The notes under the pieces were generated by a model. It was given only the letters and a program-made list of their open reading frames with translations, ran no database searches and was not told where the DNA came from. 41,628 bases of DNA from a virus: positions 1 through 41,628 of the IMG/VR virus record IMGVR_UViG_3300028837_001410; one strand, written 5' to 3'. Both the position numbers and the translations under genes were made by a program. The stretch's first letter is position 1. Each line of letters starts with the position of its first letter. Positions 1,798 to 37,844 of this stretch are shown here, piece after piece.

Positions 1798-1806
1798 ATG
1801 TTGGGT

Positions 1807-3289: not shown

Positions 3290-3588
3290 AAGACCAGTTC
3301 CCAAAACGGTCCGGTGGGTTCTCCATCTATGATGTCCCAAACTCGCCGTAAAGCACTCGGACCCAGGCCGTTCTCCGCTGCGACGGCGAAGGCCCTGAAT
3401 CCTTCGACCTGAGTGCCCTCGAAGCGTACAGTCGGTTCAGGATAGGGATGGCCGTCTCCTCCCTGGCAGGAGGCAAAGGTCTCTACGCCAGCCTCTCTCA
3501 GGATGAGTACAGCTCTCTTTATGCCGGGGTCGAGGGGCGGTTCAAAGTCTTTGTCCCTCGTTTTCTCGATCTGTGCAATGGCGTCCAC
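3286..3588 (-). CDS. Conserved phage hypothetical protein (ETFASCQGG type)
   Basis: The product holds motifs PPLDPGIKRAVLILREAG, ETFASCQGG, HPYPEPTVRF and DIIDGEPTGPFWELVF, a pattern I recognise from a widespread phage protein of about 100 residues without known function. The start chosen is GTG 3588, which has TTGGAGACC upstream; ATG 3615 is an alternative that would overlap the integrase ATG in a CATG. It is the only minus-strand gene inside the lysogeny block, convergent with the 53-residue gene and divergent from the integrase. Confidence 0.65.
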   Translation of the reverse strand: MDAIAQIEKTRDKDFEPPLDPGIKRAVLILREAGVETFASCQGGDGHPYPEPTVRFEGTQVEGFRAFAVAAENGLGPSALRRVWDIIDGEPTGPFWELVF

Positions 3589-3589
3589 A
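3551..3589 (+). promoter_or_regulatory. Candidate integrase promoter with operator O3
   Basis: A candidate -35 box TTGTCC (3551-3556) and -10 box TGCAAT (3574-3579) are 17 bases apart, each matching consensus in four of six positions. Overlapping the -10 box is CTGTGC-N8-CCACA (3571-3589), which differs from the O1/O2 operators by one base in the right arm. Transcription would start near 3586, giving a short leader with AAGGA before the integrase ATG. The region also codes for the start of the minus-strand gene. Confidence 0.4.
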
Positions 3590-3613
3590 TTCGGTCTCCA
3601 AGGACAGTATACC

Positions 3614-7127: not shown

Positions 7128-7149
7128 GTGTCCCCTTTCAGGGCGATGC

Positions 7150-16558: not shown

Positions 16559-17299
16559 CTATTTCCTGGTCTTGCGCATCTCGGCCAGCTCTGCCGCGAT
16601 GCGCTCCCTTCCGTGCAACTTGGATTTCCCTGCACTGGGAAGGCCCTGGCCCAGTTGGGGAACTAGCTCGCTCGCTTGCTCGCCCATCTGTTCCTTGGTG
16701 ATGAGGTCCCGAAGCTCTTTCTCTCGCTTAGGGGTCTGTGCTGTGCTGCGGCGCTCAAGCTCCACCTCAACGCACGCCCGCATGAACTCCGGTAGGCTGG
16801 GGTACGTGCTCGCCTTCTTCGCCATCTCAGCCCGGAGGGCCTTGTCGCCAATCGTGCTCAAGGCTTGCGTCTGCATGTTGGTCAGCACACGCCCCAAGCT
16901 GTCCTTGGCCAAAGCCTCGACCAGGCCGCTCGTGCGAGACTGCTCGCGCACGTACCGCCCGTACTCCTCATCATCCATCGCGCTCTCGCGTTGCTGCCGG
17001 GCCTCCTCTTCCTCCTGCTGCTGACGCTTGAGCCGTTCTTGGTGAAGCATCTTGTCTTTCAGGCTTTGCGCTTGCCGAAATATGGTCGCCTGCGCTTGCT
17101 TGCTTTGAAGAAGCTCACCAATCTGCTCCGGCGTGAGGCTCGGCTGCTGGCCAACCGTTTGCTCCTGTGCCCCCGGTTCAGTGCTCGCAGAAGCTGGCGT
17201 GGGGGTGGTCGCAGCTTGCGCTATCGTAGCGGGTGCAACGCCACCAGCCGGTTCCTGCGGCTCCTCCCTCTGGGCCTCGGAAGCTGTCTTGCCTGCCAT
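16559..17299 (-). CDS. Scaffolding protein
   Basis: A 246-residue highly charged protein: an N-terminal Ala/Pro/Gln-rich disordered part, a long Gln/Glu/Arg coiled-coil region (about 75-130, LKDKMLHQERLKRQQQ) and a basic helical C-terminus ending ERIAAELAEMRKTRK. This is the typical composition of phage scaffolds that bind capsid through a basic C-terminal helix. It directly precedes the capsid gene. GGAGGAGGAG stands at the right distance from ATG 17299. No protease domain is visible. Confidence 0.75.
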   Translation of the reverse strand: MAGKTASEAQREEPQEPAGGVAPATIAQAATTPTPASASTEPGAQEQTVGQQPSLTPEQIGELLQSKQAQATIFRQAQSLKDKMLHQERLKRQQQEEEEARQQRESAMDDEEYGRYVREQSRTSGLVEALAKDSLGRVLTNMQTQALSTIGDKALRAEMAKKASTYPSLPEFMRACVEVELERRSTAQTPKREKELRDLITKEQMGEQASELVPQLGQGLPSAGKSKLHGRERIAAELAEMRKTRK

Positions 17300-17321: not shown

Positions 17322-17352
17322 GAAACAAAAAAACGCCGCTTTTCGGCGGCGT
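17322..17352 (-). terminator. Rho-independent terminator before the scaffold gene
   Basis: On the minus strand, ACGCCGC (17352-17346), loop CGAAAA and GCGGCGT (17339-17333) form a perfect 7-base stem followed by seven U and then GUUU. It stands after the giant gene and its small follower and before the scaffold gene, so some read-through or a separate start must feed the head genes. A second copy of the 5' arm lies upstream at 17373-17385. Confidence 0.8.
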
Positions 17353-17412
17353 TCGCGTTAGCGACTACCGGGGAAAAGCGGCGTTCCTTTACGGACTGCC
17401 CTTATTCAGTTG

Positions 17413-17550
17413 TTACTTGGAGCCTCTCTTGTGCGCCTTGCGTATTTCGCTGGTGGTCGGCTCTATTTTCAGCCAGCGCTCGAGCGCGTCGAGAATCATC
17501 AACAGCCCCTGGCGCAGACCAACCCAGAACTCGCGCTCGTTCACCCTCAT
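17413..17550 (-). CDS. Small 45-residue phage protein
   Basis: ATG at 17550 overlaps the last A of the TAA of the giant gene (TAATG); stop TAA at 17413-17415. The product starts MRVNEREFWVGLRQGLLMI and ends with a basic helix (EIRKAHKRGSK). The pattern of Leu/Ile helix with DALERWLKI and then PTTSEIRKAH is familiar from tiny phage proteins lying in head-gene modules, but their role is unknown to me. Confidence 0.6.
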   Translation of the reverse strand: MRVNEREFWVGLRQGLLMILDALERWLKIEPTTSEIRKAHKRGSK

Positions 17551-20500
17551 TATAGCATACTTTCCAGCCACATTGCAACTGGTGAACCAGCCTGCAAGGG
17601 CGATTGCAGCCCTCCATAACCAACGGCCTGGAGCAGCGGAGTCCGCTGTCTCGCCCTGGCCAAAGCCTCCTCTGCCCAGCGTGCGGGGCCGAACGCTGGC
17701 CCAGCCAGCCCCGGACCCATTGCCCCCAGGCCCAGGAGCATCTGCATCTCTTCCTCGGGGACTCCGCCGAAATAGCGCGAAAGGAGCGGGTAGGCGGCCC
17801 AGAAGCGTCTGCGCAGAGGGTTGGTGCGCCGCGAGATGCCCTGCAACAGATACGCGCCCATCGGGTCTTGCTGCGCGTAGAGGGCTCGCAGCGTAGCCGT
17901 GGGCATGTCCGGGACCACCCTGCCCCAGGCTGTGAGGGTACCCCGCGCCCGGCTGACCGCCGCCGTCTCTTCGGGCGTGAGCCCGATGTACTGCGGAATC
18001 GCCTGGTACTCTTCGTACAACCCGTAGGCGGTGATGAGGTCGGGCATCTCCTCGACGGCCCAAAGCTCGGCGGGCTCTCCTCGCAGGTCCTGAAGCACGA
18101 AGTCTCTGACGTTTCCGCGAATCTTGGTGCGCACCGTGTTGAGCATCCGGTACCTGGCCGCGTCGCTCATGTCAGCGTAAAAGTCTCGACTGATGAGCTC
18201 GCGCCACGCTGTGTCCAGCCGCTCCGTAGACAGCTCCATGATCTCGCTTCGCTGCTCCGGCTCGACCTCCATCGGGGTCCCGTTCACCGTGATAGTCCGT
18301 CCGGGCTCCTGTATGCCCAGGCCAAACCGCTTCACTTCGGGGATTCGGTAGAGCTTGCGGCGGGCCTCCTTGGTGGCCTCTTCCAGATTGCGATAGGCTC
18401 GGCGAACGGGGGCCGTGCCGCGTGTACCCAGGAGCCGCCGAACCACAGGCATCTGGCGCATCTGCTCAAGGGCAGTCAACTCTCGTACCCTGGCCTCACC
18501 GGGTACAATAGGCTTGTAGCCCAAGGCCTCCAGCGCAAGATCGCATCCCCACAGGGCGGCCCGACCAGCGCCCGCCGTGTTGTCAACGATGGCAAAGTCA
18601 ATGTAGCGCGGGCTCACCTTGAACTGCTTGCCCAACGCGATTGCTACCTTGCTCGTCTCGGGCCCGTACTGGTCCTCGGGAGGCCGTCCCTCCTCGCCCT
18701 GGGGCACCAAGTCGCGCTTGGTGAACATATCGCGGTTCAGTGCGATCTGTACGGCGGTGCCAATGACCGGCGGCGTGAGGATGGACAGGCTGGGGTCTAG
18801 CGGGGACTGCTCTAGCAGCCCCTCAAGACTGGCCCCCAAGAGGACCTCGACGACGCTGCGGTCTTCTTGCTCCCAGGCGGTGTTGAGCATCGCTTCCAGC
18901 CCGGCGGTTACAGCCGTTACAATCTCGGCTTTGGGAAGCTTCAGATAGACGGGGTACCTCTCGGCGACACTGCTCGGATAGCGGGGGTCGGGCTTCTCCT
19001 GCCCCTCGCCGAGCATCAGGATGTAGTTGTTTCGCCACTCGTAGTCGGGTATGTCCTTCGAGGACTTGAACCTCTTGTTCCACAGCCAGAAGACGATGGC
19101 TGGAACGGTGAAGAGCGCCGCCCTCGCCAAGGCCGTGCGCGGGTTGCGGCGGGCCATGTCGAACAACTTGTAGGCCGCCTGCGTTCTTGGGTTGATGAAT
19201 GGCGCCGCACCTTCATTCAGGACCCGCATCGCAAACCCGGCTTGGTCGAAGTTGATGGTGGAGTTCGCGCACCGGAAGGCCTGCTCCCGCCCCATCAGGC
19301 CCTCGTCGGCCAACTTCATCCAGGTCGCCAACCTCGTTCCTTGCTCCATCACCTCGTTAAGCCACGCGATCGCGCGCGGCAGCATGAGAGCAATGTCCTT
19401 CACGCTCTTGATCTCGATAGCTGCCCCGATCGGCCTAAGAGCCTCCACCCTCGCCCCGGTGAGTGAGGTTCTCATTATGCCGCCGGTGAAAGCCTGGGCC
19501 TGGGCTGCGTCGTGCCACACGTCCTCGTGGCGGATTGTCTTGATGATGCCCTGCGCCCAGGTCTTGCTGAATGGCACCAGGCCCTCTGTCCACCAGGCCA
19601 TCGCCACATCACGGAAGAGGTTGACCAAGGGGAAGTCCGGGTTGTAGACCACAGCACCCACTCGCAGCGGCCTGGCGATCTTCCTGAGAACGCCGCGAAT
19701 CAGCCCCGTCTGGTAGGCGTCCAAGCTGTTAGCGATTCGGGCGTAGGGCTCCGCTATGGTCACGGTTTCTATCTTGCCGTCCACCCGGTATTTCACCACA
19801 CCCCAGCCCTCGCGTTCGTGGTCTCCCCTCTCCACGAGCTTCTTGTCGAACTTTCTTAGCGCTGGCACAAGGCTCTGCTTGGCCAGGTTTCGGGCTACCC
19901 AGACCTGCTCTCGGATGACGGAACTGAACCACGCCTCCAGCGGGTCTTTCAACTGGCGCAAGCTGCCTTCCTTCAAGATGCGCTCGCTGAACACGCGAGG
20001 AGGCAACGGCTCATCCCCTCTCGATACGCTGGCCCAATCCAAGAGGTCGTCAAACCCTTGGCGGTAGAAGGGGAAGTAGTGCGGGTACCGCAGCCGACAC
20101 AGCGCGGCGTCTGCTGCGCTGATGTGGCCCCCGCGAACGCCCTCTTGAAGCTTCAACTGGTCGTTGATAGCCCAGAATGCGCGGGCCGCCGTCTCAATCT
20201 TGTCCCACAGCTCGGGCGCCAGCGTGGCCTGCATCTCCTCCAAGGCTGCCTCGGGACTCGTCACCCCACCCGGCAGGGCCGCTTCGGGATTGATCTGCTG
20301 AAGGTCCAGCATCCGCCAGGCTTCCATGTAGTCCTTCCACTCCTCTACATGGTCGGCGATAGGTCGCAAGACGGGAACGGCGTGTTGCTTGAGGAGCGAT
20401 TCGGCTCGAATAGCAGCCCCTCCCACCAGGCTGATCTCCTGGTAAACATCCATGCCCGTCTTTCGCTCGACGGCCTTGAGCGGGTCGTAGCGATCCAAGA

Positions 20501-23500
20501 GCTCCAGCGTCGCTTTGGAGAGAGCGCGCCTTATCCTGTCCTTGAGGGGCGGCTTCTTGGCTACCTCATCACGGCTCTTGCGCAGCAAATCCCATTCGCT
20601 GGTGTACTCTGGCACGCCCTCCTCTTCCGGCCACTCTTCGGGCAACTCTTCGGGTGGCGGCGGTGGCGGCTCCTCAGGTGGCGGTGGCACGCCAGGCGGC
20701 GCAGCCACGGGCACAAGCTCCTCCTCCGGCTCTTCGGGAGGTGGCGGCTCTATGAACGTCCCTTCTGGCGGCGGTGGCGGTGGCTGTATCGCCGCCATGC
20801 TTGGCCTGGGGAGTTCAGGGGCAGGTGCCTCGGGCACAACCTCTGGCGCTTCTATCGCCGTCACCGGGACGCCATATCGCTCCTGCAGGAACTGCGCCAG
20901 GGGCTCAACAGCCGCCTCGTGCAAAGCCCCAGGTATAACGAGACCCACAGGTTGCCCGCCTGACCGCACCTCAATCGCCGCTCGCGGCCCATGCTCGTAG
21001 AAAGCCGCGTCGGGATAGTTGCGCGCAAAGTGGGCGTAGTAGCGATCCAACATCAGTATCGGAGTGCCGTCACTGGTCTGGAACACCACATAGTCCTTTG
21101 GCGGCAGGATTCTCTCCAGCCGAGTCCCCTTGCGTTCTGCCGCTTTCGTGACGCCCACCGGCGTGAGCCTGGTGCCTGGCTCCCCAGGTACTATCTGGCC
21201 GAGGTTCATTTCGGTTGACCTCACGCGAACGTCGGCGTACTGCTCGGGCAGATCGGCTCCAATCTCGGCAAGGAAGCCGTCCGACCAGGCTTGCTGCTCG
21301 CCCAACTTGCCAAGCACGATTTCCTCAACGGCTGGCAGGTTCCTCTTTCGCAACACAGCCTTGAGTTCCTTTGTGGAAGGCTCGAATCCCACGGGCGGCC
21401 CGGTCTCTTCAGGTTCCGGCCACTCCGGAGCAGGCTCCGGTGCAACCTCGGGTACAACCTCCGGAGCAGGCGCCACAACCGTAGTCGCCGCCTCGTACCT
21501 CACCTGGATGCGAGGATTCAGCCGGGTCCCGCGATTCCGGATCCCTAGCTTTGGCCCGTCCGGCGTAAGCTGGTACAGCGTCCAACCGTCAACCACGGGG
21601 AGGTTATCCAGCTCTGCCTGTTCCTGCATCTCTTCCCAGGCCCGGAACTCCAGGCTCCGGTCGGCGGAGTTGCTCCACTGCACCGGCTCATACTCCGCCG
21701 CTTGTGCCCTGTCTCGGGCCCGCTCCAGCAGGAGATCGCCAGGGCTTCCCTCAAGAGGCTCGAAGGCTGCCTCCTCATACTGCTCGGGCACCTCCGGCAG
21801 AGCTTCCTCTGGCAGCGGCGCTATTCCGGGCAGTACTGGCTCCTCTCCCACTGCGGGTACAACTGCCGGTGCTATTTCGGGGGCGACGGGCCCCACCGGT
21901 TCCATCGGCTCCACAGGTTCCAGAAGTTCCGCAACAACTGGCGGTTCACTCGGCGGACCCAACGGTGCCTCAGCTTCCGGGGCCACTCCCTCCGTGATCG
22001 CCACGGCCTCTTCGCTTGGTGGAACAACGGGCACCTCCTCTTCGACCTCTGGGGGCACGGGTTCCGCGGCTGGCACCTCGCCACGCAGTATCTGCGCAGC
22101 CTCCTCCAACTTGTCAGCCGCCGCCTCCATCGGCGTCCTCTCGGGGGCCGCTTCTGGGACTACCTCCGGGGGCGCTTCTTCGGGCAGGACCTCGACGGGT
22201 GGTGCCACCGCCTCAGGCACGGCCTCGGCCTCCAGTATCTCCGCTTTGGCCTGGGCAATGGCAGCCTGCTCCGCTTCCAGGGCCTCGGTCAGGTCTGGCA
22301 TCTCGGTCGCGCCTGCTTCGAGCGCGGCCTGAATCAGTCGCACCTCTACCCGCAGCCGGGCCAGATCCCCCGCCTTGGCGAACGGCTGGGCAAGCAACTC
22401 AACCCACTGCTCACGTGCTTTCCCGCCCCGCTCGATCCTTCTCTCAACGACACCGATCTCCTTGGCGATGCCCTTCACTCTGTTGTTGAGCCGTCTCAGC
22501 CATCCCTTCGAGCTGGCGTCATCTTGCACATCGAAACTCTGCGTGCCGTAGTGCGGCACCACACCAGGACGAAGTGGGTTCGTGCTATACAGCGTCAAGT
22601 GAGCCTGCTGAAGAGGCGGACTGTACGCAATCTCCATCTCGAAGCCCTTGAACTCTCCAATCGTCTCGTAGTAGTAGGGCCTTTGCTTGTGCGATGGCAA
22701 CACGGCATTCTTGATCTGCCATTTCCTGCCCCAGGCCTTTTTGTGCGCCTGGATATAGTCCTGGAGGGCTTGGCCAGCACGCTTCTGTTCTGTAACCCGC
22801 TCCTCGCCAAGCGTCAGGGAGAAGCCCGTGGCCTCGGCCTGAGTGAGGTCTTGTCTGAGCTGCGCCAGGGTCTGCTCTCGCCAAGCTTGATCGTCGGCGC
22901 CATCTCTGAGACCTTTCTGCCCGCGAAGCCGCTGGTCGAACCAGCGTCCGTATGCGGCCACCACCTTCACAAGCTGATTAGACCGGACTGCCTCTTCATA
23001 GGCCAGCGGGTTGCCTGTAGCCAGAGACCGCATCTTGGCCGAATCCAGTATGTCGGAGTCGGTGCCTTCTATGGTGCGCTCCAAGACGTTGCGCTTCATC
23101 ATGCTCTTGATGGCCCGCCACTTGGCCTCCACGGTCTGCCAGATAACGCCGTCAAAGGAGCCCTCACAAAGGTACTGGTAGATCTCCACGCCCAGGCCGG
23201 TGTCGGTCACCTTCCCCTCGGCATCGAAGACAGGACCGTACACCTCGTTGCCCATCCGCAGTATGCGGCCCTCTCGCTGCTCAATGTCGCGGGGTCGCCA
23301 GGGTGTGTCGATGTGGTGCAAGGCTCGCACTCGCTCCTGGACGTTCACGCCCACGCCCAGCTTCTGGGTCGAGCCGATGAGCACCCGCACACGGCCACTG
23401 TTGACGCCCTCGAATAGGGCCCCCCGTTCCAGATCCGTCTTGGCGTCGTGGATGAAGGCGATCTCTTTGACTGGGATGCCCTCATGCACCAGGAGGCGCT

Positions 23501-26500
23501 TGAGCTCCCCGTAGGCCGTGGTGAAGTACTTGCCTTCCTCTTTCGTCTCCAGGTCCAACAGGGCCTCGGTCGTCTCCTCATCCAGGTCGAAGGCGTCCTG
23601 CATAGCCCGAGCTATCGCCTCTGCGGACTTCGGGGTGCCCATGTCCGCGAACACCAACTGGGTGCCCTTCTCCTCCATCGTCTCGCGGTAGATGCGCGCA
23701 ATGTTCTGTGAAGCCTTGGCCAGCTTGCCATGCAGCTCGAACTCGGGTGCTGGGACGTTCGCGGCCAACGGGTCTCGGCTGACCACATCCGCCACCATTC
23801 GAGGATCAAGGGCAGCAAGCCTGGCGTGTGTGTACAGCTTCAGATAGTTGTCTTGGGTGAGCGGCACCTTGCCTATGCGCTGGTCGATTCGCGCCACGAT
23901 GTATTCCATCCAGCGATCATGCCACTCAGTCCGGGGGGAGGTTATGGGAATGCGTGCGCCGGTTAGCAGCTTGGGCTTCTTGGCTTCCAGATAGGGCACG
24001 TCCTCGCCGAGCACGATGTCGGTTACCAACTGCCAGACGCGAGAGAGTTCCGGCATATTGGTGAATCGGGAGAACCGCGTAACCTGCCTATACGCGCCCT
24101 GCACTGTGTACTCGAGGTCGTCGCCCTCCTCTGCGTAGGTGGCGGCCCACGAGTCGAAGTGTCGCAACCCTTCCCGATCGAGGATGTCGGGCATCAAGTA
24201 GCGCATCGTGGTCCAGAGCTCGGCGATGGTATTGGCAATCGGCGTGCCGGTGGCAAAGACCAGCCCACGTCCCGCATGTTGCTTCCCCAAGTGCCGTACC
24301 TTCACCAGCATGTCGAAGGCTCGTTGTGAGTCTGTGTTGGAGAGCCCCTTGATGCGTGTCTTCTTCGTGGCGAACTTGAGGTTCTTGTACATATCGGATT
24401 CGTCCACGAAGAGTTGGTCTATCCCCAGCTCGTCCCAGTAGATGTGAACGTCCTGGCGTTCCCGCAGCTCGGCAATCTTGACCTGCAACTTCCCTTCTGC
24501 TGTCGCAACGGCCTTCTCCAGCGCGTTGGCGGTTGTCTCGTCCATACCCTCCTGGCGGAGCTCCTGGGCCGCATCGCGCATCTGCTGAATGAGTTGCCCG
24601 CGGACCTCCCCATACAAGTCCGGACTGGGCTGCAGCTTGGTGAACTGGGACTGGGGCAGAATGACCGCATCCCAGTCGCCAGTCTGGATGCGCGCCAGCA
24701 TCTGAGCCCGCTTGTCCGCAGCGAACTCGCTCTTATCCGGAGCCAAGATGCGAGCGGCCGGGTAGAGTCGCCCGAACTCAGTCACCCATTGCGAGAGCAC
24801 CTGGTTGGGCACGACGTAGAGGTTCTTGCGAGCCAAACCCAGGCGCCGAGCCTCCATGCCAGCCACTATCATCTCGAAGGTCTTGCCGCTGCCCACCTCG
24901 TGGGCCAGCAGCGTGTTTCCCGTTGCGAGGATGCGCCACACAGCGGCCCTTTGGTGAAGCATTAGCTCGATCTCTGGGTTCAGTCCCGCCAAGCTCAGGT
25001 GCGACCCGTCAAACGCTCTGACGACCCACCTGTTGAAAGTGCGATTGTAGATGTCCACTAGCTCTTCGGCCCGAGTCGCGTCCTCCCAGACCCAACGGGT
25101 GAACTCTTCACGCAACGCCTGTGCCTTGGCTTTTGCGGCCGCCGTCTCCTCGGCATCGGTCTGGGTGTGCCCCTGGACGTCCTTGTAGGTTACTTTCACG
25201 TCCCTACTATTAGCGATGGCATCCACCAACCTGTACGAGGGTCTCAGCGCAGTCCCCCAGGTCTCGCTCTCCAGAATGTGGTCGCCCTGCCTGCTCCGCT
25301 TGCGCCCCAAGGGAATGACCCACTGGCCGGTAGACGGAACATACTGGGCGCGTGGCCGTCTCTCGCCCGTTGTCGGCAACCCCGTGACGTGACACAGAAA
25401 GTCCTCCATCACTACGTTGGGCAGCCAGGGGGCACCCAAGCCCACGCTGATCTCGCTCGCTTTCAGGGGCTCGGGTTGCACTCCCTCCAGGGCAGTAACA
25501 TTCACCCTGAACTTGGGATCGCTCTCGGCTGCCTGGCGCGCCGCCGCCAGTTTGGTCACTACGTCTCCGGAGAGGTACTCGTCCGCCGTCAGCAAGGGGC
25601 CGTTCGGGTCGTCGTACACCAACTCACCCAGGGCCTGACGCGCCTGGGCTTCCGTGTTGCCCAGGAGTTCCGCGATACGGGCCAGGTCCGGTCGGCCCAA
25701 CTCGTCCAGGCAGATCAACAATCCGTCCCGAGCGGTCTCGGCGGACTCCGCTCGCTTGGGGGTGCGAATAGTCCGGCGATAGAACACGTCTGCCTTGATG
25801 AGTGCTTGGTCGCTGGCCTTGAGCTTCTTCTTTGGCCGCGTCTTCTGAGCGCCCTCTTTCGTAACCGGCTCCCTCATCGCGTCGGCCATAGCCTCATCCC
25901 ACTTCTCCAGGGCGAGAAGCGGGGCGCGTTGCACGGCCGCCATAGCTCTCCAGTTGACATCCCGGTGTAGAGCCCCGTGCTTGGCGGTGTACTTGTCGTA
26001 CTCCTCGTTCAGCTTGGCCAGGGCCTCCTGGTAGTCTGTCTCGGGCCAGCCCTCGCGCTGCGCCGCGTACACGTCATCCAGCACCTTCAGAATGCGTAGC
26101 TGCCCCCGGATGCGAGGCTTGTTGGTGTTCGGGCTCCTTATCTCGGCCACCACAAACTCGCGGCCAACGCGCTCCAGTATGGTGACGCCGTCTTCCGAGA
26201 GGACGTAGGCTCCGGGCTTCACGCTCAGGTCTATGGGAGCAGGAACCGTGCTGGGGGCAGCCTCCTCGACGGCCCCCGCTGCTGGGTTGAGGGCGTTCTC
26301 GGGCAGGCGCGCCACTGCCTCGGCCAACTGCTCCGCGAGGACCCGGTCAGCCAGGGGCTCCACGGTATACTCACCGCCCCGGTACATGGCGCCGGTCATG
26401 GCCTCTTTGCCCAGGATGTTCTCGGGGTGGTTGTCGTAGTATTCGTTTCGAGCAACTTCCGCTGGCTCGTAGTAGCCCCGCCGGAACTTCCTCTTGGGCG

Positions 26501-29500
26501 ACTTGAGCCACGCCTCGCCGCTGGCAGCTTCCCCCGGCTTCCGCTTCCGCAAGAAGATGATGTCGGTCACGACCTCCGTGCCGGCATTCTTCTTGAACGC
26601 GGTCTTGGGGAGCCGAACGGCCATCAAGAGGTCGGCCTGGTCTGCAAGGTGGGCTCGCAGCTTCTCGGTGCCCGTCGCGTCCATCGTCCCCTTGCTCGTG
26701 ATGAAGGCCACCACGCCGCCCGGCCTGACCAGCTCCATGCTCAGAGCAAAGAACTGGTTGTGAATCTTCTCGCGTCGCAGCCAAGCCTTGCTTCTGTCCG
26801 AGAGCCAGTTCTGCACGATGAGGTTCTCGCCCGCTCCCGTGAAGGAGAAGGTGCCGAAGGGAACGTTGGAGATGACCAGGTCGAAGGAGTTGGGGCCGAG
26901 GCGGGTGTCCTCGAAGCCCTGTATGCGCACGTCGGCGCTCTGGTACAGTTGCTTGAGGAAGCGCCCCGTGAGGGGGTCTAGCTCTACTGCGGTGCGATCA
27001 GCCCGTGCCGCTACGTCCTGGGGCATCAGGCCCAGGAAGTGGCCCGCGCCTGCGGACGGTTCGAGCATCTGGACGCGGCTCAGGTTCTTGAGGCCCAACC
27101 GCTCCAATCCGTCCCACATGCCCTGGATCACTTCGGGCGAGGTGTAGAAGGCGTTCATCCGAGCGCGAGCGGCCCCTATGTACTCTTCCTCTGTAAGCAC
27201 TTCGCGCAGGGCCCTATACTCGTCTCCCCAGTGCTTGCGCTTGGCATCGTCAGCAGCCCAGACGCCTTCCTCGTACCTGTACCCCCAGGGAGTGGTAAAG
27301 TCGCTGCCCGCCCAACCGGTGTACTTGACCAGGACGGCCTGTTCCTCGGGGGTAGCCTTGCGGCCTTCCTCCTCCAAGCGCTTGAGGAGCCTCACTGCCT
27401 CGATGTTGTCCCAGAAGCGGGGCTTGGGCGTGGCCTCACCAACCTGGTCGTCGCCGGTGATGCGGTAGTCTGGAGCAGGGGCAGCGGGTTCGGGGTGGCT
27501 TTGGGCCTGCGGAGTGGGGTTTACACCCGTAGCTGGAGCGCCACGTCCCTCATAGCCTGGGACCACGCGTGGAGCGGGTCGAACCCCTGCTTCCTCAACG
27601 TATCGTGGTAGCGGTGGGTGCGCTGGGCCCTCTCCAGGCTCAAGCTCTGCAACTGGCCGGTACTCACGCCCTCTGCGTACATCTTCGGCGCGTGCTCTTT
27701 CCAGTGCAGCCGTATCTTCAAGGCCAAGTCCTTCACCGGCAAGAGGTGGCGCAACTCCTGGCTCTGGTACAGCTCCTGGCTCTCCTGGTCGGACACTGGG
27801 CACCTCCTCTTCCATTATACCAGTTATCGGCTCGGGACGCAAGGGTTCAGGCCTCAGTTCTGGATAGTCGGCGAGTATGCCAGGGGCAACCTCCATGCCG
27901 GCGTCGAGTGCAGCACGGACAGCCCGCTCCTGCAACCTCTCGCGGTTGACATCTATCTTGCCGATGGGCACGCCACCTACCGCCTGGGGATAGGTCACGC
28001 GATACTCGCTACGCGGCGTGGTAACTGCCTCTCGGAACGCCTCTTGAGTGATGCCAAGCTCTTCCCAGGGCTTCCGGGCCTCGACCTCAGGTACAGGCGC
28101 AGCAGGCTCGACGGCGGCGGGCACCGGTGCCTCTGCTTCCGCTATCTCTGGCCGCCCCATGTCCTGATACAGCTTCGCGTCCTTCATCTCGGTTAGCTTG
28201 GCCTGCTCCGCCTCTATGAGCGCGTCCACCTCCTGCATAGCCCGACCTTCGTCATAGATGGCCATCTCATAGGCAGCGTCGTGGCGCTGCCGAAGCCCAC
28301 GCAGCGTCTTCTCGCCCGTTCTGATAAGCGAGTTGAGGGTTCGTGGCCTAACGCTCAGGTAGCGGTTGCCCGCTCGGAGTCTCTCGAAGAATGCTCGCCG
28401 TCCGGGTGGTTCGGGTGTAGGTGCAGCAGGTGCCGGAACCTCCGCTGGTGGAGGAGGCTCGACAGGGGGCGCGGCAGGCTCAACGAATGTCCCCTTGGGG
28501 CCAACCACACGCCCTTCCAAGTCCTGAAGCTCCTGTATGACCCTGGTCGCATTCGCCTCAAGGGTGGCAACCCTTTCGGGTCTCTGCCCTACAGAGACCT
28601 CATCCCGCGCCTCAACCACAAGCTGAATGGCGGCCTGGATACGCTGAGGGGAATCCCACTCCTCTGGTATCGCAGCCAAGGCCACGTACACTGCTTGATC
28701 ATCCTGCCCTGTTTCGAGGGCTCGTCGTATTCTGCTCTCCCACCCCAGGCCCAACTTAGCCCCTACCTTGGGCTCCTCCTCTGGCGGTACCTCCTCCTCC
28801 GACACTGGCGGCCCAACCGCGCCGCGCTCCTCCACGCGGAGCCCCTTCATCCGCTGCCAGATAGCCTCCAACGCATCGCGGAAGGCGCTCTGGCCGGTGT
28901 GATACTTGGCTACGTCGTCCAGCGTGGGGGATAGAGAGAAGGTGCGCTGGATCGCCTGCCCAACTTCCTCAACGACCTCGGGCGGAACTACCGAAGGCGC
29001 TGGAGGGGGTCCAGCGGGCGGTGCGCCAGGAGGGGGAGGAGCAACCAGCCCCCGCACTGCCTCTGCCGCTGCTTCTGCGGCCGGAGCCGCCTTGGGCGTG
29101 TACCACTTCTCCAGCAAACGCCTCCACCAACTCCCGTTGGGGTCTATCTGGTCAATCGCCGCCATAGCCCCCAGGTTCTGGTAGGTCGCCTGCTGCAATA
29201 TGTCCGCGGTGCCCCGCTCGATCGCCTGGTACGCCTCGGCACTGATAGCCGGAAGCTGCTCGCCGTAGAGGATCGCGTGCGAGGTGGCTCGGATGTCCTC
29301 GGCACTGATGGGCTGCCCCATGCGAGTGAACCGCTTGGACAACTTCTCCGCGTTCTTGCCGATCTCACTGAAGGCCCTATCTCGCGGGTCGTCCCTGGCT
29401 ATCTGGAACCACTTGCGTACCTTCGCAACCTGCGACGCCTTCCCGACCAGCCCAGCAATCCCACGGATGGCACCGTAGGTAACGACCATTGCAGCCAGTT

Positions 29501-30398
29501 CTTCCGGCTCTGCCGTGGCTATCCTGATCCCGTACAGGCTACGGCGCACAGCCGTTACCGCCTTCGCCGCCGGACCTGCCGTGCCCGCAGTCGCTACACC
29601 AAACCAGAGGATCGGGTCGGCCAGAAACCCCGAAGCCACTTGCCACAATACCGGGGACTCCTCCTGCACCTTGTTGTACTTCTCGATGTTCGCCTGTACG
29701 TGGCTGGGAAGGTCCTCGATGTCCTCGAAGGGGTTGATGTAGGCACTGACCAATCCGATAGGGCCTATCGGCTCCTTGCCCGTTAGAATGGCCCAGGTTC
29801 GGCCCAGCACTGGCTTCATGGCACGGTGCCCAGTCAACGCCCCGTATTCCGCCGCCTGCAGCACTCCCTGTGCGGGCACATTCGCCTGAGCCATCTCTGC
29901 GAGCGCCGTTAGTCTCGCGGGCACCTGGGGGTAAGTCGGAGCGGCCAGACCACCATAAGCCGGGATCGGTACTGGCCCTATGGGGGGCTGCGCCCTGGTT
30001 CGCTGAGTCCACTCTGCTAGAAGGTCTTGGGGCCTGCGTTCGCCCGTGACCATCTGCGCACCCATCCCAATGAGACCAAGGGGATACTGCAAGACACGCT
30101 TGGGTGTGAACTGGGCCAAGAGGTCGAAGAACTGCGCGCCCCAACGGGGCCTCGTTGGCTGCACTGCTTGAGGTTGCTGCACAGGCGCTACGGGTTGCGG
30201 GGCAGGCGCTATCGTCGGTTGCGGCGCAGGCCGAGGCGTGAACGGCCTTGGCTGCATGGGAAGCCGGGGAGCCTGTGGCGGCGCCGGCATCTCTGGATGC
30301 CGCGGAGGCGTGGGCGCAGGTGTTGGCACCACCGGCTCCCGCTCGCGGCGCTCATGGAGGTCTCTGTCTTCCCAGAGCCAAAAATCCGTGATAGCCAC
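17550..30398 (-). CDS. Giant polyvalent protein: N6-methyltransferase-like, SNF2-like helicase, LPD-type C-terminus
   Basis: A 4282-residue protein (about 470 kDa) with GTG start 30398 touching the HNH stop (TAGGTG; GAGGG upstream). Order: Pro-rich residues 1-90; hydrophobic stretch near 250-300; more Pro/Glu linkers; the NIEAVRLLKRLEEEGRKATP...GWAG region near 1000-1040; an adenine methyltransferase-like domain with MLEPSAGAGHFLG (about 1115) and NVPFG (about 1178); an SNF2-like helicase with HEVGSGKT (about 1833-1840), FVDESD (about 2000), FATGTPIANT (about 2050) and QREGRILRMGN (about 2378); acidic linkers 2600-3250; and a large C-terminal region with VYNPDFPLVNLFRD (about 3590), like LPD38-type domains. 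This resembles P1 DarB and other phage polyvalent proteins carried in virions. Restriction avoidance is inferred. Confidence 0.85.
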   Translation of the reverse strand: MAITDFWLWEDRDLHERREREPVVPTPAPTPPRHPEMPAPPQAPRLPMQPRPFTPRPAPQPTIAPAPQPVAPVQQPQAVQPTRPRWGAQFFDLLAQFTPKRVLQYPLGLIGMGAQMVTGERRPQDLLAEWTQRTRAQPPIGPVPIPAYGGLAAPTYPQVPARLTALAEMAQANVPAQGVLQAAEYGALTGHRAMKPVLGRTWAILTGKEPIGPIGLVSAYINPFEDIEDLPSHVQANIEKYNKVQEESPVLWQVASGFLADPILWFGVATAGTAGPAAKAVTAVRRSLYGIRIATAEPEELAAMVVTYGAIRGIAGLVGKASQVAKVRKWFQIARDDPRDRAFSEIGKNAEKLSKRFTRMGQPISAEDIRATSHAILYGEQLPAISAEAYQAIERGTADILQQATYQNLGAMAAIDQIDPNGSWWRRLLEKWYTPKAAPAAEAAAEAVRGLVAPPPPGAPPAGPPPAPSVVPPEVVEEVGQAIQRTFSLSPTLDDVAKYHTGQSAFRDALEAIWQRMKGLRVEERGAVGPPVSEEEVPPEEEPKVGAKLGLGWESRIRRALETGQDDQAVYVALAAIPEEWDSPQRIQAAIQLVVEARDEVSVGQRPERVATLEANATRVIQELQDLEGRVVGPKGTFVEPAAPPVEPPPPAEVPAPAAPTPEPPGRRAFFERLRAGNRYLSVRPRTLNSLIRTGEKTLRGLRQRHDAAYEMAIYDEGRAMQEVDALIEAEQAKLTEMKDAKLYQDMGRPEIAEAEAPVPAAVEPAAPVPEVEARKPWEELGITQEAFREAVTTPRSEYRVTYPQAVGGVPIGKIDVNRERLQERAVRAALDAGMEVAPGILADYPELRPEPLRPEPITGIMEEEVPSVRPGEPGAVPEPGVAPPLAGEGLGLEDTAALERARAEDVRRGREYRPVAELEPGEGPAHPPLPRYVEEAGVRPAPRVVPGYEGRGAPATGVNPTPQAQSHPEPAAPAPDYRITGDDQVGEATPKPRFWDNIEAVRLLKRLEEEGRKATPEEQAVLVKYTGWAGSDFTTPWGYRYEEGVWAADDAKRKHWGDEYRALREVLTEEEYIGAARARMNAFYTSPEVIQGMWDGLERLGLKNLSRVQMLEPSAGAGHFLGLMPQDVAARADRTAVELDPLTGRFLKQLYQSADVRIQGFEDTRLGPNSFDLVISNVPFGTFSFTGAGENLIVQNWLSDRSKAWLRREKIHNQFFALSMELVRPGGVVAFITSKGTMDATGTEKLRAHLADQADLLMAVRLPKTAFKKNAGTEVVTDIIFLRKRKPGEAASGEAWLKSPKRKFRRGYYEPAEVARNEYYDNHPENILGKEAMTGAMYRGGEYTVEPLADRVLAEQLAEAVARLPENALNPAAGAVEEAAPSTVPAPIDLSVKPGAYVLSEDGVTILERVGREFVVAEIRSPNTNKPRIRGQLRILKVLDDVYAAQREGWPETDYQEALAKLNEEYDKYTAKHGALHRDVNWRAMAAVQRAPLLALEKWDEAMADAMREPVTKEGAQKTRPKKKLKASDQALIKADVFYRRTIRTPKRAESAETARDGLLICLDELGRPDLARIAELLGNTEAQARQALGELVYDDPNGPLLTADEYLSGDVVTKLAAARQAAESDPKFRVNVTALEGVQPEPLKASEISVGLGAPWLPNVVMEDFLCHVTGLPTTGERRPRAQYVPSTGQWVIPLGRKRSRQGDHILESETWGTALRPSYRLVDAIANSRDVKVTYKDVQGHTQTDAEETAAAKAKAQALREEFTRWVWEDATRAEELVDIYNRTFNRWVVRAFDGSHLSLAGLNPEIELMLHQRAAVWRILATGNTLLAHEVGSGKTFEMIVAGMEARRLGLARKNLYVVPNQVLSQWVTEFGRLYPAARILAPDKSEFAADKRAQMLARIQTGDWDAVILPQSQFTKLQPSPDLYGEVRGQLIQQMRDAAQELRQEGMDETTANALEKAVATAEGKLQVKIAELRERQDVHIYWDELGIDQLFVDESDMYKNLKFATKKTRIKGLSNTDSQRAFDMLVKVRHLGKQHAGRGLVFATGTPIANTIAELWTTMRYLMPDILDREGLRHFDSWAATYAEEGDDLEYTVQGAYRQVTRFSRFTNMPELSRVWQLVTDIVLGEDVPYLEAKKPKLLTGARIPITSPRTEWHDRWMEYIVARIDQRIGKVPLTQDNYLKLYTHARLAALDPRMVADVVSRDPLAANVPAPEFELHGKLAKASQNIARIYRETMEEKGTQLVFADMGTPKSAEAIARAMQDAFDLDEETTEALLDLETKEEGKYFTTAYGELKRLLVHEGIPVKEIAFIHDAKTDLERGALFEGVNSGRVRVLIGSTQKLGVGVNVQERVRALHHIDTPWRPRDIEQREGRILRMGNEVYGPVFDAEGKVTDTGLGVEIYQYLCEGSFDGVIWQTVEAKWRAIKSMMKRNVLERTIEGTDSDILDSAKMRSLATGNPLAYEEAVRSNQLVKVVAAYGRWFDQRLRGQKGLRDGADDQAWREQTLAQLRQDLTQAEATGFSLTLGEERVTEQKRAGQALQDYIQAHKKAWGRKWQIKNAVLPSHKQRPYYYETIGEFKGFEMEIAYSPPLQQAHLTLYSTNPLRPGVVPHYGTQSFDVQDDASSKGWLRRLNNRVKGIAKEIGVVERRIERGGKAREQWVELLAQPFAKAGDLARLRVEVRLIQAALEAGATEMPDLTEALEAEQAAIAQAKAEILEAEAVPEAVAPPVEVLPEEAPPEVVPEAAPERTPMEAAADKLEEAAQILRGEVPAAEPVPPEVEEEVPVVPPSEEAVAITEGVAPEAEAPLGPPSEPPVVAELLEPVEPMEPVGPVAPEIAPAVVPAVGEEPVLPGIAPLPEEALPEVPEQYEEAAFEPLEGSPGDLLLERARDRAQAAEYEPVQWSNSADRSLEFRAWEEMQEQAELDNLPVVDGWTLYQLTPDGPKLGIRNRGTRLNPRIQVRYEAATTVVAPAPEVVPEVAPEPAPEWPEPEETGPPVGFEPSTKELKAVLRKRNLPAVEEIVLGKLGEQQAWSDGFLAEIGADLPEQYADVRVRSTEMNLGQIVPGEPGTRLTPVGVTKAAERKGTRLERILPPKDYVVFQTSDGTPILMLDRYYAHFARNYPDAAFYEHGPRAAIEVRSGGQPVGLVIPGALHEAAVEPLAQFLQERYGVPVTAIEAPEVVPEAPAPELPRPSMAAIQPPPPPPEGTFIEPPPPEEPEEELVPVAAPPGVPPPPEEPPPPPPEELPEEWPEEEGVPEYTSEWDLLRKSRDEVAKKPPLKDRIRRALSKATLELLDRYDPLKAVERKTGMDVYQEISLVGGAAIRAESLLKQHAVPVLRPIADHVEEWKDYMEAWRMLDLQQINPEAALPGGVTSPEAALEEMQATLAPELWDKIETAARAFWAINDQLKLQEGVRGGHISAADAALCRLRYPHYFPFYRQGFDDLLDWASVSRGDEPLPPRVFSERILKEGSLRQLKDPLEAWFSSVIREQVWVARNLAKQSLVPALRKFDKKLVERGDHEREGWGVVKYRVDGKIETVTIAEPYARIANSLDAYQTGLIRGVLRKIARPLRVGAVVYNPDFPLVNLFRDVAMAWWTEGLVPFSKTWAQGIIKTIRHEDVWHDAAQAQAFTGGIMRTSLTGARVEALRPIGAAIEIKSVKDIALMLPRAIAWLNEVMEQGTRLATWMKLADEGLMGREQAFRCANSTINFDQAGFAMRVLNEGAAPFINPRTQAAYKLFDMARRNPRTALARAALFTVPAIVFWLWNKRFKSSKDIPDYEWRNNYILMLGEGQEKPDPRYPSSVAERYPVYLKLPKAEIVTAVTAGLEAMLNTAWEQEDRSVVEVLLGASLEGLLEQSPLDPSLSILTPPVIGTAVQIALNRDMFTKRDLVPQGEEGRPPEDQYGPETSKVAIALGKQFKVSPRYIDFAIVDNTAGAGRAALWGCDLALEALGYKPIVPGEARVRELTALEQMRQMPVVRRLLGTRGTAPVRRAYRNLEEATKEARRKLYRIPEVKRFGLGIQEPGRTITVNGTPMEVEPEQRSEIMELSTERLDTAWRELISRDFYADMSDAARYRMLNTVRTKIRGNVRDFVLQDLRGEPAELWAVEEMPDLITAYGLYEEYQAIPQYIGLTPEETAAVSRARGTLTAWGRVVPDMPTATLRALYAQQDPMGAYLLQGISRRTNPLRRRFWAAYPLLSRYFGGVPEEEMQMLLGLGAMGPGLAGPAFGPARWAEEALARARQRTPLLQAVGYGGLQSPLQAGSPVAMWLESML

Positions 30399-31202
30399 CT
30401 ATACCCTCACGCTTTCTAAGTAACCCCTGATGCTCTCCAACGCCTGCGGCAATACGAACTCTGCGCCACGTCCGGTTGCCCAGTCAACAAGAGTCGCTGC
30501 CCTCTTGCTGCGATTGCAGCGCTTACAAGCAGGAAGAATGTTCTCCACAACATAACCCCCACCCGCACTCACAGGCACAAGATGTTCCTGCTCGAAGAGT
30601 ACGTCGCTTGCACCGCAATAAGCGCATGAGTAGCCAAAGTAGCTTAGCGCCCCTTCCCACTGAGTCTCGGTCAGTGTTGCGGGCAAGCCAGCTTGCAGAG
30701 CCTGGCGTCTTTCCTGGGCGGCCCTCTTCACTGCACGCCCGCGGTCTGACTGGCGATACCTCTGCTCGCGAAGGTACGTCTCTTGCCGATGTTCCTCTGC
30801 ATACCTTTTCTTGTCTAATCGAAGCTCTTCCGCGTGCTTCTGGCGATAGGCCACCATAAGCAGCCGAATCTCTTCTTTGTGCTCTTTGCGATACTGCTTA
30901 GCGTATGCTTTCAGCTCCTCCTGATGTTCTTGACGGTAAGCAACGTTGTAGACTCGGATCTGCTCTCGATGCTCAGAACGCCATTTGCGCGATTTCGCTT
31001 GTATCTCTGCCGCGTGCTCTCGCCGATACTCTCGCATGTGTTCGGGGTGCTCATTGTAGTATCTTCGGGCGCGTGCTCGCTCTTCCTCTCTATGCTCTGC
31101 TGCGTACCTTCGCCCATTGGCTCGCAGTCTTTCTCGATGCCTCTCCCGATACCTACGATCACGCGCTCGCTTCTTCTCTCTAGCGGTGAGATCACTCACC
31201 AC
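30399..31202 (-). CDS. HNH endonuclease with repeated basic N-terminal helix
   Basis: Up to 267 residues; start GTG 31202, or GTG 31199 which overlaps the upstream TGA, with GGAGGT upstream. About nine copies of a 14-residue unit like YRxEHxEEIRxxxx fill residues 10-155, very rich in Arg and Glu, probably long charged helices. Residues 185-235 hold the HNH fold: CAYCG (193-196), EHLVPVS with His207, ENILPACKRCNRSK with Asn221 and the second CxxC (226-229). Related proteins cut or nick DNA. It lies directly before the giant polyvalent gene and is translationally linked to it. Confidence 0.8.
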   Translation of the reverse strand: MVSDLTAREKKRARDRRYRERHRERLRANGRRYAAEHREEERARARRYYNEHPEHMREYRREHAAEIQAKSRKWRSEHREQIRVYNVAYRQEHQEELKAYAKQYRKEHKEEIRLLMVAYRQKHAEELRLDKKRYAEEHRQETYLREQRYRQSDRGRAVKRAAQERRQALQAGLPATLTETQWEGALSYFGYSCAYCGASDVLFEQEHLVPVSAGGGYVVENILPACKRCNRSKRAATLVDWATGRGAEFVLPQALESIRGYLESVRV

Positions 31203-32929
31203 CCACCTCCAAACCAGCTAACGGGCGCGACTTGCCCACCTGTCGGCCCGGCCTTCTGCATCATCTGCATCCAGTCAGGTGCCCAGCCCCCGCCACTCTC
31301 GACTGCACCGAGTAGCATCTCCTTCTCGGCCGGGGTCATGTTGGCCCACTGGTCGGGTCTCACCAACTGGGGCCTGGCCGCAAGCTGCTGGTAGAACGCC
31401 TGCCCCCAAGCCGGTATCGCGGGTGCGTTGCCCAGGGCGATGCCCTCAGCAGGAGGCTGTGCAACGGCAGCGGGTTGTGGAAGCCCAGCTTGCTGGGCAG
31501 GTACAGCAGCCGCGCCTTGGAACGGTGCGACGCCCAACCCTTGCGCAACCTGCTGCGCCCAGCCGGGGAACTGGGTCTGCTGCGCCGCCCTCAACGTGTT
31601 CGCGTACTGCACCCAGTCCCGAGGCCCGCGCAGCGTGGACATGAGCGTGAGATAGTCCATCCCCAACTGGCCCTGGCCGTACTGCTCCGCCCACGATTGT
31701 TCTCGCTCCCATTCTGCGCCGCCGCGCTCGAACTCCGCCGACCACTGTTGGGCCGCACGCTCCGACTCCGTCGTGCTCAGGCCAAACTCCTGCTCCCACT
31801 GCTGCGCCGCCGTCGCCACCTGCTGCTCGGTGAGGGTGAACTCGCGCTCTCTCAATGATTGCTCGATACCCCACTGGCGGATGGCCTCCGTATCAAGACC
31901 CTGCGCCCTGGCAAACTCTGCGTTCCACCGCCGTTTATCTTCCACGTCGAGAGTGGAGAGGCGCCCCTGTTGGATGTTGAACTGCCGAATGGCCTCGTCG
32001 TCCAGACCCTGCGCGCGCATGAACTCCTCGTTCCAACGACGAGTGTCCTCAGCAGCGACGTTTACCTGTTCGTCAAACTCCGCCACCCAGCGGTCTTGAG
32101 CCTGCTCATCAAGCCCCTGCAACCGCAGAAACTCCTTTTGCCACTGGTCCCTAGCGTCCTTAGCCAGCGCCAGGCGATCATCACGTTCGTCTTCCCACTG
32201 CGAATATGCTTGCTCATCCAATCCCTCTGCTCGCGCAAACTCCAGCCCCCATTGCCTGCGCGCTTCGGCGTCGAGACCCACAACCCGGTCATGTTCGGCC
32301 TCCCACCGATCCTGCGCTGCCTGGTCGAGACCCTCGGCACGGAGAAAGTCCAACCCCCACTGGCGATCACCCTCCTCATCCCTTGCCTTCTGATAGGCAA
32401 AGGTGTCCTCCCACTGTTTTATGGTCTGATCGTCGACGCGCTCCGTTCGAGCAAACTCAGCCTCCCAGCGGTCTAGCGAGCTCTCATACATTTCGCGCTC
32501 AAGCGTCGGTTGGGCTTCACCAGCACCAGGGTCGTAGTCTTCTGCGGACGGCGGCGGCGGCTCTATCCAGTTCGCGGCACCAGCATACTGGAGAGGGTCA
32601 ATGGCCCCAGCCTGCTCATAACCCTCGTCGCCAGGACGGATAATGTTGCCGTCAGGCCCCATGCGCTCCTGGGTTATGCTCAGCCAGTTCTCCATGCGCT
32701 GAATAGGCGTGCCCTGCCCCTCTCCCCAGTTCTCGTTGTAGAACTCCTCGATGTCGTACCGGTGAGAGTAGATGGCCTCCATCGCTTCGTCTCGCCCAGG
32801 CCCCGCCTGTGGCGCTGCGGGCTCAATGTAGCCCGTGGCTATCCCGCGCTGTAGCTGGTCGTTCAGGTAGGCCATGAGGCTCTGAAGCTGCTGTTGCGTC
32901 CAGTTGTAGCCACCAAACACGTCTGTCAT
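31196..32929 (-). CDS. Internal-type virion protein with 18-residue Trp repeats
   Basis: A 577-residue protein. From Trp155 to Trp353 an aromatic residue recurs every 18 residues without exception (155, 173, 191, 209, 227, 245, 263, 281, 299, Phe317, 335, 353), in units like RWEAEFARAEGLDEQAxx. After one 25-residue step the pattern resumes at 378 and 396. Eighteen residues equal five turns of alpha helix, so the aromatic residues should line one face of a long helix or helical bundle. The C-terminus is Ala/Gln/Pro-rich and ends VAPVSWFGGGW. Its place between portal and the giant protein suggests an ejection or core protein. The function is inferred. Confidence 0.65.
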   Translation of the reverse strand: MTDVFGGYNWTQQQLQSLMAYLNDQLQRGIATGYIEPAAPQAGPGRDEAMEAIYSHRYDIEEFYNENWGEGQGTPIQRMENWLSITQERMGPDGNIIRPGDEGYEQAGAIDPLQYAGAANWIEPPPPSAEDYDPGAGEAQPTLEREMYESSLDRWEAEFARTERVDDQTIKQWEDTFAYQKARDEEGDRQWGLDFLRAEGLDQAAQDRWEAEHDRVVGLDAEARRQWGLEFARAEGLDEQAYSQWEDERDDRLALAKDARDQWQKEFLRLQGLDEQAQDRWVAEFDEQVNVAAEDTRRWNEEFMRAQGLDDEAIRQFNIQQGRLSTLDVEDKRRWNAEFARAQGLDTEAIRQWGIEQSLREREFTLTEQQVATAAQQWEQEFGLSTTESERAAQQWSAEFERGGAEWEREQSWAEQYGQGQLGMDYLTLMSTLRGPRDWVQYANTLRAAQQTQFPGWAQQVAQGLGVAPFQGAAAVPAQQAGLPQPAAVAQPPAEGIALGNAPAIPAWGQAFYQQLAARPQLVRPDQWANMTPAEKEMLLGAVESGGGWAPDWMQMMQKAGPTGGQVAPVSWFGGGW

Positions 32930-32972: not shown

Positions 32973-33839
32973 TCAGGGGCCAAACCTCGCCAGGGCCGAC
33001 TGGATCCATTGTTCCATCTGCTCCGCACTCGGCGGGTTGGCCACACCCAACGGCTGCGGCCTGTACTGCAACCCCGCGCTGGCATACATGCCCTGCACAG
33101 GGCCCCCTCGCTCGAACCCCGGCGCGTAGGTCGTGCCCCTGGGCAGCGCGTAGGGCATCCCCTGCCTCCACACCTCGGCCTGCATCGCAGCTACGGCCTG
33201 GCCCAGGCTGGCGGCCATCTCGCGCTGCTGCTGCTCTCTCTGCAAACGGGCCTGCTCCGATTGTTGGGCCAGGCTCGCGGATTGGTACTGCGTCATCTGC
33301 TCGTAGGGGAGCCGCCCCTGGGCTAACTGCGCTTGGCGATAGGCTTGGGTCTGCGACGCCATCTGCTGGCTCAGGGCAAACTCCGCCCAGTCCAGTGGCG
33401 TGTCCTGCGCCCCGGCCGTGGCCCTGGGTAGCAGCCCCGCTCCGATGCGCTCGGCACGCGCCCTCTCCTCCTCAGACAGATACTGGTAGGATTCCCCGGT
33501 GAGGGCCTGCATCATCTGGGACTGGTAAAGGGCGTAGAGTTCATCGTCGTCCATCGCCAGACCCGGCATCTGCTGGCGAAGGGCCTTGATTATCGCGCTT
33601 CTCTCTTCCGCCTCCGCCTCACCAGGCCGATAGCGGGGAAGCTCCCCTGCCCTTGGTCCGGGTGGCATTTGCTGCGTAGGCCCGCCGAACCCAGGCAGGC
33701 CATAGCTGCCTGTGGGCGGAGGCGTGGTGGGGCCGGGGTAGATGGTGGGGTCAATCCCCGCGCCGCCAGCCCCCCCGAGGCGCTGCGCGGCCGGTCTCGG
33801 TCGCATAGCATGCTGGAGCCATCTGTCCATGTACGGCAT
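32973..33839 (-). CDS. Gln-rich internal or ejection-type protein
   Basis: The start is ATG 33839 with AGGAGG six bases upstream; GTG 33842 is also possible. The 288-residue product has a Gly/Pro-rich first part, an acidic helical part (AMDDDELYALYQSQMMQAL), and a long Gln/Ala/Arg-rich helix (LAQQSEQARLQREQQQREM). There is no catalytic motif. Low-complexity, Gln-rich composition and position between portal and the repeat protein fit an internal virion protein, but another structural role is possible. Confidence 0.5.
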   Translation of the reverse strand: MPYMDRWLQHAMRPRPAAQRLGGAGGAGIDPTIYPGPTTPPPTGSYGLPGFGGPTQQMPPGPRAGELPRYRPGEAEAEERSAIIKALRQQMPGLAMDDDELYALYQSQMMQALTGESYQYLSEEERARAERIGAGLLPRATAGAQDTPLDWAEFALSQQMASQTQAYRQAQLAQGRLPYEQMTQYQSASLAQQSEQARLQREQQQREMAASLGQAVAAMQAEVWRQGMPYALPRGTTYAPGFERGGPVQGMYASAGLQYRPQPLGVANPPSAEQMEQWIQSALARFGP

Positions 33840-33842
33840 CAC

Positions 33843-37798: not shown

Positions 37799-37816
37799 CC
37801 CGCGTATCTCCTCCCA

Positions 37817-37844
37817 ACAAAAAAGCCCCACCTTCACGGTGAGG
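37817..37844 (-). terminator. Rho-independent terminator between zinc-ribbon and portal genes
   Basis: On the minus strand, CCTCACC (37844-37838), loop GTGAA and GGTGGGG (37832-37826) pair in seven positions including one U-G, then C and six U. It falls between the gene at 37922-38299 and the portal gene. Read-through or an unseen promoter must supply portal expression. Confidence 0.7.

Follow-up and report, generated by a model that had tools for sequence, protein, structure and literature searches.

The DNA analysed here is the whole 41,628-nucleotide stretch of the virus record IMGVR_UViG_3300028837_001410 (hereafter, the window), and the gene in question, on its minus strand at 17550..30398, encodes a giant polyvalent protein of 4282 amino acids (aa) with a GTG start and a TAA stop. 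We confirmed that this open reading frame (ORF) is real. It contains, in one copy each, the five motifs that had been quoted in an earlier note on this DNA, i.e. MLEPSAGAGHFLG (aa 1111), NVPFG (aa 1178), HEVGSGKT (aa 1833), FVDESD (aa 1997) and QREGRILRMGN (aa 2374), and no NPPF, NPPY or DPPY is found in its 4282 residues. The GTG start abuts the TAG stop of a gene for an HNH endonuclease, and a GAGGG stretch resembling a ribosome-binding site precedes it. Upstream of the giant gene are the genes for the large terminase, the portal (35459-37837; a sub-threshold P22-portal match, identified mainly through position and synteny) and several helical proteins. Downstream are a scaffold-like gene (16559-17299) and the major capsid gene (15616-16542; PHROG 212 major head protein, E-value 1.7e-50). 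The giant gene thus sits between the portal and scaffold genes, where the earlier note had placed it. The record may be incomplete, because related phages reach 58 kb. As described below, the protein is one of a syntenic series of giants whose ends are homologous and whose middles have been replaced entirely; it is this series that is new, the enzyme and its giant carrier being already known.

The middle of the protein (aa 963-2546) is, by homology, a fusion of an adenine-N6 methyltransferase of the DarB type with a SWI2/SNF2 motor. The PHROG 10089 profile (“DarB-like antirestriction”) covers aa 972-2723 at a score of 1426 bits, far above what chance would give, and P1 DarB itself matches the core family profile at 4.1e-89, which bears out the relation to DarB proposed previously. 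The methyltransferase part, assigned to the gamma class and TaqI/EcoKI-like, covers aa 963-1440 (26079..27512, minus strand), with the S-adenosylmethionine motif I at aa 1111-1123, a motif IV of the N-x-P-[FY] type (NVPF) at aa 1178-1181 and a YT motif upstream. A profile search with this part reached M.TaqI (3.5e-8), and the Eco57I methyltransferase family in Pfam fell just under its cut-off (21.2 vs 25.3 bits). The translocase part (aa 1800-2460; 23019..25001, minus strand) passes the Pfam cut-offs for SNF2-rel_dom (3.6e-9) and Helicase_C (5.7e-7), is matched by profile to SNF2 structures and, in alignments, shows the Walker A motif HEVGSGKT, a DExH box with variable fourth position (motif II, DESD) and a motif VI of the form QxxGRxxRxGN (QREGRILRMGN). 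Further towards the C-terminus, LPD38 (Pfam PF18857) is found at aa 3781-3955 (1.4e-16; 61.6 bits vs a cut-off of 27). Thus, methyltransferase, SNF2 motor and LPD38, as foreseen in the earlier note, lie in one chain encoded between portal and capsid genes, as in polyvalent proteins, and the paired methyltransferase and SWI2/SNF2 motor are homologous to those of the DarB-like family.

A single-sequence search of the viral_contigs collection with the core gave no match, and alignment-based searches were needed to find its relatives: 119 phage records match DarB-type giants, as do at least 588 viral stretches. Giant carriers of this enzyme pair are therefore already known, with sizes of 3,600-5,100 aa. 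Core identity to Bcep22-, VvAW1- and PEp14-type giants is 34-38%. In an alignment of 11 giants (the window protein and ten others at 34-38% identity), the catalytic columns, i.e. the motif I glycines and N-x-P-F, are invariant. NVPF in place of NPPF had been put forward as an anomaly, which it is not: P1 DarB carries NVPF at aa 180, and among 90 giants with a readable motif IV, 37 have NVPF, 51 NPPF and two NIPF.

We then compared the giants encoded at the same locus in related phages. Searches with the capsid, portal and tail sequences located five IMG/VR relatives, G001, G002, G004, G005 and G008, which together with the window constitute the lineage (G003 gave match values identical to those of G004 and was counted as the same phage). 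A further portal search added no members, and searches of the genome_contigs collection with the major capsid and portal proteins found no prophage. Identity to the window is 64% (G001), 61% (G004), 37% (G005) and 45% (G008) for the capsid and 54% (G001), 60% (G002), 57% (G004) and 47% (G005) for the portal. Gene order is shared, the giant following the genes downstream of the portal and lying upstream of the scaffold gene where the sequence extends that far; the G002 contig ends just past the giant, and in G008 the portal is at the far end of the record. Giant length ranges widely: 2380 aa in G001, 3088 in G002, 3272 in G004, 1956 in G005 and about 1910 in G008, against 4282 in the window. 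A more distant relative (L130:4061-12022) encodes a 2654-aa giant with LPD38 and DUF7178 (7.7e-9), possibly another type of cargo.

Homology between these giants was scored as z values set against window-shuffled controls. The C-terminal tail (aa 4085-4282; 17553..18146, minus strand) is homologous in all five relatives (z 9.5-26.9). At the other end, all six giants open with a head rich first in aromatic and then in charged residues, after which comes a Pro-rich stretch; in the window this is TDFWLWEDRDLHERRERE... (aa 1-32; 30303..30398, minus strand). Most pairs of heads beat shuffled sequences, the pairs G002-G004 and G004-G008 being those that do not. The helical region that follows (aa 86-542; 28773..30143, minus strand) is clearly homologous to those of G002 (z 32.8), G001 (19.8) and G004 (9.1), and gave no match in the phages collection. 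The DarB core, in contrast, has no counterpart in the middles of the five relatives (z −1.0 to 2.3), and the methyltransferase-SNF2 profile matches the window protein alone among the six (2063 bits). ParB-like domains occupy the middle in G001 and G005, and a DdrB-ParB domain (PF18763, 9.2e-12) is found in that of G004. Since DdrB belongs to the P1 Dar system (PMC9024508), two of the cargo types recall parts of one antirestriction system. Thus, as far as sequence comparison tells, the lineage conserves the flanks of the giant, not its core.

Between these conserved ends and the core, the window protein is itself composite. Pro/Ala/Glu-rich linkers, recognised by composition, and a small “VAPGILADYPEL” module occupy aa 543-962 (27513..28772, minus strand); the “VAPGILADYPEL” motif is present in four of the six lineage giants, compared with four of 142 other long ORFs. 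Beyond the core, aa 2547-3220 (20739..22760, minus strand) hold linkers and another small module, at about aa 3017-3156, that resembles a portion of the G008 giant. Then follows a long C-terminal part, class A (aa 3221-4084; 18147..20738, minus strand), which contains LPD38 and one transmembrane-like helix (aa 3755-3773) and is homologous to G004 alone (z 81), not to the C-terminal parts of G001, G002, G005 or G008. Homology between class A and class B C-terminal parts was considered and is unsupported (hhalign probability 0.2%, z near 0). By these matches the window protein is a chimera, its N-terminal part like those of G001 and G002, its long C-terminal part like that of G004 and its DarB core like neither. 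The very long C-terminal region had been described earlier as lying outside DarB, which holds, and as unexplained, which does not: it carries LPD38, as do BcepIL02 and VvAW1, and a tail common to five syntenic phages.

The structure model of the C-terminal part (mean predicted local distance difference test, pLDDT, 66) finds LPD-type polyvalent proteins among many of its best viral matches, and extended LPD38 is present in about a quarter of 80 viral giants; against the PDB, the model gave no match at E ≤ 0.001. Residues 3217-3500 of the N4 virion RNA polymerase gp50 give a suggestive superposition (Z 4.3, 188 residues, 5.5 Å), which is level with unrelated chains, and homology to gp50, which has neither sequence nor profile support, is unconfirmed. 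Weak Pfam matches to FkbO, TPR_5 and DUF1707 were taken as chance. The tail of the window protein ends in W-[AIL]-x-x-A/M motifs (RWAEEAL, MWLESML). In the broader form W-[AILTV]-x-x-[AM], a pattern chosen after the sequences had been inspected and whose copies within one family are not independent, a C-terminal motif is found in five of six giants and in five of six of the neighbouring 289-aa proteins described below; the other families in the survey gave two singletons. We regard this shared motif as a lead, not a result.

The closest known systems are the giants of Bcep22-type podophages, such as BcepIL02 gp70 (4667 aa), JC1 gp69 (4515 aa) and VvAW1 gp01 (3640 aa), which share with the window protein the core, giant size and a setting among virion genes; in BcepIL02 and VvAW1, LPD38 is likewise near the C-terminus. 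Unlike them, the window protein has no SLT transglycosylase or LPD3 domain by Pfam (BcepIL02 has both and VvAW1 neither, so these are not universal among Bcep22-type giants), its gene is found between the portal and scaffold genes, whereas theirs come last in the virion operon, and its N- and C-terminal ends are of a different lineage. P1 DarB (2255 aa) also combines a methyltransferase bearing NVPF with an SNF2 motor, and its gene adjoins the portal gene; however, LPD38 and the lineage tail were undetected in DarB, the two heads show no sequence similarity and darB runs opposite to prt, unlike the arrangement in the window. Homologues of Ulx, DdrA, DarA or Hdf were not identified in the window, where no search was aimed at them. 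Iyer et al. described the methyltransferase-helicase dyad, LPD38 and the virion context of polyvalent proteins in 2017, and orthologous polyvalent proteins with varying domains had been noted in Helicobacter prophages (PMC5512222). The window protein resembles those cases in uniting several activities and LPD38 in one late-region polypeptide, and differs in that here, at one syntenic locus, the ends are homologous and the whole middle is replaced, in phages whose capsid proteins are about 60% identical. N4 gp50 is comparable as a giant virion protein in which delivery regions flank an enzyme (PMC5512222), and differs in lacking the Pfam LPD38 domain and any profile match.

Together, these results lead us to consider it fairly probable that the protein is a polyvalent effector delivered by the virion, in which a chassis carries an antirestriction cargo. 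The N-terminal head, the adjoining region and the C-terminal tail would recruit the protein into the prohead and export it with the DNA. The DarB-type middle, which by homology is an adenine-N6 methyltransferase and a SWI2/SNF2 motor, would be the cargo. After entry, the enzyme may methylate the incoming duplex as the motor moves along it, or the two may coat this DNA; either way, the entering DNA would be protected in cis from type I restriction enzymes and comparable systems, as proposed from P1 DarB. Protection in cis against type I restriction has been shown for P1 Dar (PMC12707154). Across the six phages compared, the ends are kept while the middle is exchanged, and cargo and delivery parts thus appear to evolve separately. 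Packaging is plausible by analogy: JC1 gp69 was detected in CsCl-purified virions by 51 unique peptides (PMC9144972), and it is the first 30 residues (N30) of P1 DarB that bring about its packaging and that direct a reporter into heads (PMC9024508). By the same analogy with N30, the head of the window protein is a candidate capsid-targeting peptide. More tentatively, the head, helical region and W-motif tail might be enough for loading and ejecting unrelated cargo of very large size, which would be exchanged as a cassette, perhaps with the help of the HNH endonuclease encoded next to the giant.

Several observations weigh against an antirestriction effector on a common chassis. Firstly, packaging, injection and antirestriction are ascribed to the window protein by analogy with its homologues. 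Secondly, the region aa 86-542 is only weakly similar to those of G005 (z 4.2) and G008 (z 3.4, no higher than the best shuffle), and the N-terminal structure model is poor (pLDDT 44), so the chassis is without structural support. Thirdly, the middles of G002 and G008, when searched, showed no identifiable cargo. Finally, the catalytic core of the window protein has peculiarities of its own: the spacing after motif IV is 31 residues, where 88 relatives have a mode of 17 (about 13 extra residues), the motif GxG[GAS] of LPD36, a domain N-terminal to these methyltransferases, reads GEAT where most readable relatives have GxGG, and the DExH box is DESD where the usual form is DEAH. These three changes could affect the activity of this copy, and P1 Dar may itself shield DNA rather than methylate it (PMC12707154).

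The last two points bear directly on an alternative in which the protein is packaged and injected, but covers the incoming DNA physically, the methyltransferase fold acting as a DNA-binding module with no methylation. P1 Dar, whose action is confined to cis, has been proposed to work by occlusion (PMC12707154), and the three peculiarities of the window protein named above would agree with such a role. Yet the motif I glycines and N-x-P-F are invariant in the 11 aligned giants and motif IV is N-[PVI]-P-F in all 90, which suggests selection on catalysis, and we consider pure covering rather unlikely. Another possibility is that the main role of the protein is in the ejection channel, where it would be the functional counterpart of T7 gp16 or of the P22 ejection proteins, and that the enzymes are carried along as a secondary load. 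It is encoded with two further helical proteins upstream, its LPD38 part has homologues among podovirus virion genes (MW202898, FGH, HTVC010P), and four of the six giants have a transmembrane-like helix in the N-terminal region and one in the C-terminal part. Against this, neither gp16 nor N4 gp50 was matched in sequence or, clearly, in fold (the tied superposition on the latter is noted above), and a Pfam search gave no transglycosylase domain; T7 gp16 and the P22 ejection proteins gave no PDB sequence match and are not among the fold matches listed. We judge this role, as the main one, to be unlikely. That the protein stays unpackaged, is made late and methylates progeny DNA in the cell prior to packaging would suit a late-region gene, given that packaging of the window protein is inferred, but is improbable in view of the JC1 homologue in virions (PMC9144972), of P1 DarB being a head protein (PMC9024508) and of lineage-conserved ends that a cytosolic enzyme would not need. 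Finally, a chimeric assembly as the source of the cargo difference, conceivable since all six sequences are metagenomic or viral contigs, is highly improbable given the single uninterrupted frame of 4282 codons, the flanking synteny and matching ends kept by all six contigs despite their different middles, and an order of core then LPD38 that is usual in viral giants. The first three of these readings partly overlap with that of a delivered effector, so our estimates need not sum to one.

The neighbouring genes were also compared. The HNH endonuclease gene (30399..31202, minus strand; HNH_5, 4.6e-9) is directly upstream of the giant and in frame with it, one stop codon lying between them. A homologue (47%) is found just upstream of the G002 giant, with a second similar copy elsewhere in G002, and no HNH-like gene was found in the searched stretches of G001, G004, G005 and G008; the gene is possibly mobile. 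Next to it, a 577-aa protein (31196..32929, minus strand), syntenic in all six members, is made of helical repeats of about 20 residues of the type RQWxxEFxRAQGLDxEA and has a D-W-M-like pattern at its C-terminus; it may be an internal or ejection protein. The 289-aa protein (32973..33842, minus strand) carries the W-motif of the giant tail at both its C-terminus (MEQWIQSAL) and its N-terminus (DRWLQHAM) and is a candidate co-packaged protein. On the other side of the giant, a promoter-like site (TTGCAA-18-TG-TATAAT; 17549..17578, minus strand) overlaps the stop codon and a terminator-like hairpin (17331..17354, minus strand) lies between the giant and the scaffold gene; both are consensus matches only, and promoter-like sites are rarer in the region than in shuffled sequences. 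A small ORF of 43 aa (VNEREFWVGLRQGLLMILDALERWLKIEP...; 17413-17544, minus strand) was seen by eye between the giant and the terminator. Elsewhere in the window, a serine recombinase-like gene (3503-5044, plus strand) and a repressor-like gene (1765-2187, plus strand), both judged from sequence, suggest a temperate phage, and a 444-aa protein encoded where the tail region ends (5826-7160, minus strand), 40% identical to a G004 homologue, reads as glycoside-hydrolase-type. Between its capsid and tail genes, G001 encodes a 1190-aa glycosyltransferase/methyltransferase-like protein (L101:4514-8083) that the window lacks at that place.

In the literature we found, a delivery signal in DarB-type proteins has been located only for the N-terminus of P1 DarB. 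The six syntenic proteins described here are homologous at their ends and unrelated in their middles, so that evolution alone has set delivery apart from cargo, and this split makes the delivery signals directly testable. The series yields short candidate motifs, the N-terminal head and the C-terminal W-motif, and hints at a naturally occurring means of loading large proteins into phage heads.

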